From assembly GCF_025457605.1 (NCBI RefSeq), contig NZ_JAMZFY010000001.1, forward strand, positions 1,860,001 to 1,924,000: DNA of 64,000 nt, given 5' to 3'. The DNA comes from Haloarcula laminariae (GTDB lineage: Archaea > Halobacteriota > Halobacteria > Halobacteriales > Haloarculaceae). Shown piece by piece: positions 16,098 to 17,011 of the stretch (the stretch's first letter is position 1; each line of letters opens with the position of its first letter). The notes below the pieces were generated by a model that saw nothing but the letters and a program-made list of their open reading frames with translations, searched no databases and was not told where the DNA came from. The position numbers and the translations under genes are program-made.

Positions 16098-16529
16098 ATG
16101 AGTAACCGTTCGGACATCGCGCCCGACACCGTCTCGGTCGAACTCAGCGAGGAGGGCGTCGCCGTGGAGTATCTCGACGGCCGGACCGCCTTCTACCACG
16201 GCGTCCCCACGAAGGCCGAGGGGAGCGTCACCACCGCGCCGGGCAAGGACACGCACGTCCTCATCACCGACAAGACGGAGACCTCGGGCATCATGGTCTA
16301 CGTCAACGACCTGCGGACCCACGACGACATCATCGAGGAGAGCGGCGTCGGCCGCGTCATCCTGGAAGACGGCGAGGAAGACGAGCTGTTCCCCGGCGTC
16401 ACCGTCACGGACCGTCAGATGCGCGTCGAGGTGACCGTCGACTACGACGTGACCGACGGCCGCGTGTTCGTCTTCGAGGAGGACGAGATGGGCGCGCGGA
16501 GCTTCGAGATAGTGCCGGTCGAGGAGTGA
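16098..16529 (+). CDS. DUF5796-type haloarchaeal protein
   Basis: 143 residues, strongly acidic and without membrane segments. The sequence is made of short regular strands (VSVELSEEGVAVEYLDGR, AFYHGVPTK, THVLITDK, GIMVYVNDLRTHDD), giving an all-beta look. It ends DEMGARSFEIVPVEE. I recognise it as the conserved haloarchaeal DUF5796 family, of unknown function. A TATA-like GTTTTTGCC lies about 29 nt upstream. The gene's last 44 bp are repeated almost exactly 95 bp downstream, and a T-rich terminator lies between the two copies. Confidence 0.8.
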   Translation: MSNRSDIAPDTVSVELSEEGVAVEYLDGRTAFYHGVPTKAEGSVTTAPGKDTHVLITDKTETSGIMVYVNDLRTHDDIIEESGVGRVILEDGEEDELFPGVTVTDRQMRVEVTVDYDVTDGRVFVFEEDEMGARSFEIVPVEE

Positions 16530-16558
16530 GTACGGCGAGCGAACGGCGTGAGTGAGCC

Positions 16559-16577
16559 GTTTTTCGCGCACGTTTTT
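16559..16577 (+). terminator. T-rich transcription terminator after the DUF5796 gene
   Basis: Two T5 runs separated by CGCGCACG (GTTTTTCGCGCACGTTTTT) lie 30 nt after the stop. Runs of T are the usual archaeal terminator. A short GC hairpin (GGTGGCC-ACC-GGCCACC, 16586-16602) follows. On the opposite strand, the A5 run at 16610-16614 could end transcripts of the small zinc-finger gene. Confidence 0.5.
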
Positions 16578-16624
16578 CGGTAAGCGGTGGCCACCGGCCA
16601 CCCGAGCCGAAAAAGGTGCACGCC

Positions 16625-16668
16625 AGATGGGCGCGCGAAGCTTCGAGATAGTGCCGGCCGAGGAGTGA
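16625..16668 (+). pseudogene. Duplicated 3' end of the DUF5796 gene
   Basis: The 44 bp ending in TGA at 16668 repeat 16486-16529, the last 14 codons and stop of the DUF5796 gene, with only two base differences (one silent, one Val to Ala). No start codon or body accompanies the copy. It is a gene fragment left by a local duplication, or by deletion of a second copy. A palindromic element begins at the next base, which suggests the element was involved. Confidence 0.7.
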
Positions 16669-16747
16669 TACTGGTGGCTGTAAGTTCGTAAAGATATTCG
16701 CCACCTCGGGGATGGCGAATTCCTTCAGTTTGTTACAGCCATCAGTA
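16669..16747. mobile_element. 79-bp palindromic MITE-like element (possible IS200/IS605-family relic)
   Basis: The ends are 15-bp inverted repeats with one mismatch: TACTGGTGGCTGTAA (16669-16683) and the reverse complement of TACTGATGGCTGTAA (16733-16747). Inside is a second perfect 8-bp hairpin, ATTCGCCA / TGGCGAAT (16696-16703 and 16713-16720). The element is clearly more AT-rich than its surroundings and has no ORF. Nested subterminal hairpins are what TnpA/TnpB-type (IS200/IS605) ends look like, and small palindrome-associated elements mobilised by such transposases are known in haloarchaea. No transposase is in the window. Membership of that group is inference. Confidence 0.6.
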
Positions 16748-16751
16748 TGAG

Positions 16752-16886
16752 TCACTGCAGGTACGAGGGGTCCTCGTCGTCGCAGTTTTCCTCGTGCTTT
16801 TCCGCGTCGTCGCGGTCGTCAAACATGAGGCCGCAGGTCTCACATTTGTACCAAGTCATCTCGTCGCGCTCGGTAGTGACAACCAT
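16752..16886 (-). CDS. Small zinc-finger protein (DUF7128-like)
   Basis: 44 residues from ATG 16886. The protein is one zinc-binding unit, YKCETCGLMFDDRDDAEKHE followed by ENC, i.e. C-x2-C-x13-H-x4-C, with an acidic tail ending DPSYLQ. A TATA-like ATTTACC lies about 26 nt upstream of this start, so the longer open frame (to 16973) is not used. Such one-finger proteins are abundant in haloarchaea and some act as regulators of motility, biofilm or stress genes. The role of this one is unknown. It converges on the DUF5796 gene, and its stop lies only five bases from the MITE-like element. Confidence 0.75.
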   Translation of the reverse strand: MVVTTERDEMTWYKCETCGLMFDDRDDAEKHEENCDDEDPSYLQ

Positions 16887-17011
16887 ATGGAATACTCTAT
16901 CGCCGGGAGGTAAATCGCTTTCGCGGGTGGGCACCGTTCGAAGGGCCCGCCGCATGGGCCCGTATCCGGCCAACGGGAACCCTCAAGAGGACCGGAGCGC
17001 TAGCCGCTGAC

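Follow-up and report, generated by a model that had tools for sequence, protein, structure and literature searches.

The window, by which we mean the whole 64,000-nucleotide stretch of Haloarcula laminariae DNA analyzed here, contains a DUF5796 gene on the forward strand (16098-16529, 143 aa; Pfam PF19109, E=1.9e-65), whose 3' end exists in two copies. The working, left copy occupies positions 16486-16529 and includes the TGA stop, while a repeat search places the right copy, on the same strand, at 16625-16668, identical at 42 of 44 positions and separated by a spacer of 95 bp (16530-16624). This spacer is built by a hairpin terminator element, also present at other genes, and the 6 nt that precede the right copy; its core matches covariance model R1 at 16559-16619 with an E-value of 1.4e-12. 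Directly behind the right copy, and filling exactly positions 16669-16747, lies a 79-bp palindromic element with TGA on both flanks, at 16666-16668, a triplet that doubles as the right copy's stop codon, and at 16748-16750. A convergent DUF7128 gene on the reverse strand (16752-16886) has its stop just past the second TGA, and its start is placed from the Pfam match (PF23447), which covers residues 30-73 of the open reading frame at 16752-16973. The layout is thus the one described in the original prediction, a 44-bp gene-end copy with its stop, 95 bp downstream of the gene and fused directly to a palindromic element. Both copies in the window carry a lineage-specific GCG codon where congeners have GAG, so the exchange or duplication at this site was recent, and the codon points to no particular donor.

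The 79-bp element, TACTGGTGGCTGTAA..TTACAGCCATCAGTA, is a mobile MITE, as had been suspected, with imperfect terminal inverted repeats of ~15 bp around an inner hairpin, and it folds far better than shuffled sequence (z ~ -6.9). Copies number 6 in the window genome and run to tens in congeners, up to ~40 per genome, with unrelated flanks. Comparison of 18 copies, including full copies of 80 bp, revealed the true ends TACTGG..CCAGTA, of which the window copy has TACTGG..CAGTA; full copies measure 79-80 bp, too short to code. A trinucleotide of the form TNA stands on both sides of 15 of the 18 copies, and the TNA of the window copy is TGA. No recognizable transposase gene was found between matching ends at the 20 places sampled in search of a parent insertion sequence. 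Terminal inverted repeats, lack of an open reading frame, TNA duplication and high copy number are all shared with the IS5-family MITEs of the TNA-target type, which are among the known systems closest to it. The IS200/IS605-type or PATE-like ends first proposed for this element do not apply, since terminal inverted repeats and target duplication are both lacking in those elements (PMC3119063) and both present in the 79-bp one. The exact fusion of gene-end copy and MITE is explained by the target itself: the MITE inserted later, into the TGA stop of a right copy that already existed.

The 95-bp spacer is one member of a haloarchaeal family of hairpin elements with three T5C (TTTTTC) motifs, located at gene 3' ends, and the gene-end duplication goes with this spacer rather than with the MITE, a point that the original prediction had missed. 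Part of the spacer matches a site at 604 kb on the same chromosome, where the end of an unrelated gene, which we take from its sequence to be mfnA-like, is duplicated around it too. The core pattern CACGTTTTTC..GAAAAAGGTG has four matches in the window genome, each of which separates a duplicated end of the gene upstream, and it occurs in 52 of 391 Halobacteria genomes, against 0 for a reversed control pattern. With a structure-aware model, 31 of 32 congener genomes give 8-37 matches each, and the window genome gives 13 strong copies, six of them with gene-end duplication. Named hosts are Haloarcula, Halomicroarcula, Halomicrobium, Halorientalis, Halovenus, Salinibaculum, Halorubellus and Salinarchaeum; IMG/VR, considered with viral spread in mind, yielded one contig. 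Rfam holds no relevant match for the 95-bp element, and a hairpin family flanked by gene-end copies is not described in the open-license literature covered by our non-exhaustive search.

In the window, the palindromic core spans 16569-16618, with a consensus structure in which CACGTTTTTC and GAAAAAGGTG form the arms around a hairpin. One T5C motif lies ahead of the palindrome (16560-16565), a second within its left arm (16573-16578), and a third, read on the reverse strand toward the convergent gene, within its right arm (16609-16614); the same order characterizes the family, whose palindrome is imperfect. Compensatory changes accompany the variation of the inner stem. That the outer arms show no variation in the alignment is due only to the search pattern, which demanded them, and in relaxed matches the outermost bases co-vary as well (GAACG..GGTTC, CGACG..GGTCG, GCACG..GGTGC). 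The T-tract downstream of stop codons is likewise conserved, in part because the pattern required it. In Haloferax volcanii, a reporter with T5C showed ~95% termination (PMC7237163), so these motifs are most naturally read as a bidirectional terminator, and the element probably acts as one. Longer versions occur at L437, L440, L442, L444, L446, L454 and G000:C1:241132 (G000 being the window genome), with extra 5' modules (GACGGGGAAGGGCAGGC.., GCATACC-hairpin-GGTTTCACC, hairpin-CTTTTTC), and the start of most of them is only a few bases away from the stop of a convergent gene. Some elements, at L077, L081, L082, L187, L205, L213, L226 and L240, have another module of two hairpins (ACCGGGAGAGC..GCTCTCCCGAGCC.. 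or similar) between TTTTTCGCC and CCACGTTTTTC.

Among the 120 distinct Halobacteria copies with enough flanking sequence, 58 have direct repeats on either side, 27-209 bp long and formed by the 3' end of the upstream gene, against 0 of 118 in a shifted control. In a second null, the left flank of one locus was compared with the right flank of another, and 16 of 600 pairs scored above threshold, probably as orthologous loci or arrays. The repeat usually includes the stop codon, and the upstream coding strand is the same in 53 of the 54 duplicated loci where it could be called. The downstream copy starts directly after GAAAAAGGTG, which in nearly all duplicated loci means 0-12 nt past GGTG; at L065, L069 and L070 the short filler before it is diverged gene sequence. 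No consistent microhomology joins the genes to the right end of the element, and the junctions of different genes have no core in common. The remaining 62 copies are non-duplicated, and several of those in the window genome lie no more than a few bases from a convergent gene's stop codon. A repeat scan blind to the element, over 1.2 Mb of the window chromosome, recovered a single other protein-gene-end duplication of this kind, with the same spacer element, and none without it. Given this rarity and the recurrence of the MITE, the gene-end copy and the 79-bp element both lie well outside what chance would produce. Near-identical tandem units are present at L061, L182, L229 and L252, and arrays also at L190 and L250, so the repeats also expand.

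Two candidate explanations for the duplicated ends were rejected. Fold-back synthesis, in which the right copy would end in the loop of the first hairpin, seemed promising at a few loci, but most right copies end before that hairpin; as for the inserted segment being a diversity-generating retroelement template, the repeats are short and the differences are not adenine-specific.

Other repeats turned up in the same genome. Five tRNA genes (G000:C1 217654, 251663, 285110, 489334 and 884642; L126, L128, L130, L140 and L160) are followed, 84-154 bp downstream, by a second copy of their 3' end (22-25 bp); the spacers are structured and include the tRNA end in inverted orientation, GGAAGTCGCAGCGGCCGAG is common to two of them, and arrays similar to the duplicated tRNA ends also occur in congeners. 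At G000:C1 58038-58205, outside called genes, a 32-bp direct repeat (GCCGTCTTGTCATTACGA..) with a 104-bp spacer is unrelated to the element, and at G000:C1 993142-993683 a tandem pair of archaellin/pilin-like genes has a strongly conserved N-terminal segment in common.

The differences between left and right copies are distributed unevenly over the codon. Mismatches at positions 1, 2 and 3 number 26, 34 and 183, with 183 of 243 at the third position, while a right copy that evolved neutrally and was overwritten now and then by the left should have at most about half of its differences there. The excess over one half is significant at p=6e-16, and at p=1e-4 without the five most diverged loci. 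Accordingly, both copies evolved mostly as working gene ends, and the downstream copy is not decaying junk, which counts against simple target duplication followed by decay. Divergence constrained by coding in this manner is as expected if functional alleles recombine with one another in species where the element is polymorphic.

The history of the element can be followed at single genes, with a junction that is constant across species for pheT, the mfnA-like gene and DUF5796. At pheT, element and copy are present with one common junction in 8 of the 30 congeners read, and the remainder lack both, many showing a clean empty site; every right copy is closest to the gene end of its own species, with one tie. 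At the mfnA-like gene, the element or its remnants occur in at least 14 of 32 congeners. In one of them (G016), the right copy and the sequence downstream of it are nearer to the working end of the sister G021 than to G016's own, with a clustering of the differences within the duplicated part that is suggestive only (p=0.06). In another, G022 (L275, near position 1881), the working end is the right copy, in frame after half of the element, so that half an element, fused to the spare gene end, takes the place of the penultimate 17 codons with frame and length preserved; here a deletion appears to have turned the right copy into the working end. At DUF5796, the congener G010 (L029) has the same junction as the window, with the copy starting at the same place in the gene, and in G010 the stop codon comes from the element. 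Remnants of gene ends that follow the stop immediately, with no element, were seen at L030 (G018), L274 (G001), L280 (G007) and L262 (G020); G020 has several partial gene-end copies in a row.

The best explanation, to which we give a probability of about one half, has two independent layers: gene ends and their terminators form units driven by recombination, and in the window a MITE with TNA target duplication later inserted into the TGA stop of the right copy, the latter step being shown by the target itself. Homologous recombination among functional alleles would spread, homogenize, multiply and delete these units. Alleles with and without the element would recombine within and between species, with the right copy serving as the right homology arm, either a native end that has been retired or one renewed from working alleles. 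When the two copies exchange sequence, the unit could be deleted cleanly or multiplied, or the right copy could become the working gene end. Haloarchaea are known as a highly recombinogenic group with frequent recombination (PMC3988388), and deletion between short direct repeats is documented in these organisms (PMC3119063). The import and refreshing of alleles we infer from comparison between species. Against the scheme, decay or some other history has to be assumed for the 62 non-duplicated copies, and recombination by itself fails to explain how one element family reached many genes, a step for which a site-specific recombinase or a first insertion with a long duplication may be responsible. 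It is possible, if doubtful, that the unit moves in its own right, as a miniature package of foreign gene ending and hairpin terminator that passes between genomes, replaces the last tens of bases of a gene and displaces the native end behind the terminator; many unrelated protein genes would be its targets, and a sister form might do the same at tRNA genes.

Integrases that target tRNA genes and other gene ends insert at gene 3' ends, and a site-specific integrative mini-element could be organized alike: a recombinase would place a gene-end copy plus hairpin at the 3' end of the same gene, making the left copy the carried end and the right copy the displaced native one. Such a scheme accounts for a junction that stays the same per gene in many species (8 for pheT, 2 for DUF5796, and the mfnA-like gene), for a right copy fixed to the element's right end, for the native look of the right copy in G016, and for the duplicated 3' ends around ~100-bp structured spacers at five tRNA genes of the same genome. 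We nevertheless consider it rather unlikely, because the junctions of different genes have no common core sequence, a separate matching unit would be required for every one of dozens of unrelated targets, and no recombinase gene or larger autonomous version happened to be noticed. Transposition of the hairpin near gene ends, with an unusually long target duplication (27-209 bp) and subsequent decay of the right copy, seems to us improbable. It would bring related elements to unrelated genes and leave empty sites, both of which are seen, and at L072 the right copy reaches the element's left edge and then runs on into unique sequence; the duplications are, however, far longer and far more variable than usual target duplications, and the third-position bias is unlike that of a neutral duplicate, although an event of this kind could still have been the first step.

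Slippage driven by the palindrome requires no mobility at all, the hairpin of an existing terminator promoting local tandem duplication of gene end plus element, followed by expansion and contraction. The six arrays of near-identical units (L061, L182, L190, L229, L250, L252) are what it predicts, but most right copies have no second element behind them, and outside arrays the second element often has an unrelated hairpin (L060, L240, L243); as slippage explains neither one family at many genes nor the codon-position bias, we judge it decidedly improbable as a general account. Finally, the proposals of the original prediction, in which the gene end was captured or duplicated by the MITE or a deletion reaching the MITE removed the rest of a second DUF5796 gene, start from the copy ending where the MITE begins and are refuted by the 3-bp duplication, which makes the TGA stop the TNA target of the MITE, and by the general pattern, in which other inspected MITE copies carry no gene end and gene-end copies accompany the spacer element at dozens of MITE-free genes.

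The usual view takes gene ends and terminators to be set by descent. The hairpin family appears instead to mark spots at which haloarchaeal species have repeatedly copied, exchanged and replaced protein C-termini and 3' UTRs, to the extent that in one species the working C-terminus of the mfnA-like gene now contains element sequence. If the preferred reading of recombination among alleles is true, these loci hold a readable record of allele exchange at the scale of a single gene and offer a natural system in which to measure gene conversion in archaea. They also explain odd partial gene copies at haloarchaeal gene ends, by which annotation could be misled.

Several known systems resemble the element in part. 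Integrative elements that attach within the 3' ends of genes restore the gene end on one side and leave a second copy on the other, and the hairpin element is alike in both respects; unlike these, it has no integrase that we saw and no cargo, measures ~100 bp, and occupies many different genes with no common core. Archaeal T5C and poly-T terminators (PMC7237163) correspond to its two forward and one reverse TTTTTC, some of which follow a hairpin, but ordinary terminators are not described as a conserved palindromic family with flanking gene-end copies. The SMR and PATEs of Haloquadratum walsbyi are similarly short, non-coding, palindromic and multi-copy, and lack a transposase of their own (PMC3119063); they have no target duplication and reside mostly inside other mobile elements or derive from IS605 ends, whereas the 95-bp element carries terminator motifs and sits at gene 3' ends, often between two gene-end copies (direct repeats at 58 of 120). 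Repeat-mediated deletion in haloarchaea, the clean loss of one repeat together with the intervening DNA (PMC3119063), fits the empty sites at pheT and at the mfnA-like gene; that process only deletes, whereas the repeats around the hairpin element also take part in apparent exchange, amplification and replacement of gene ends.
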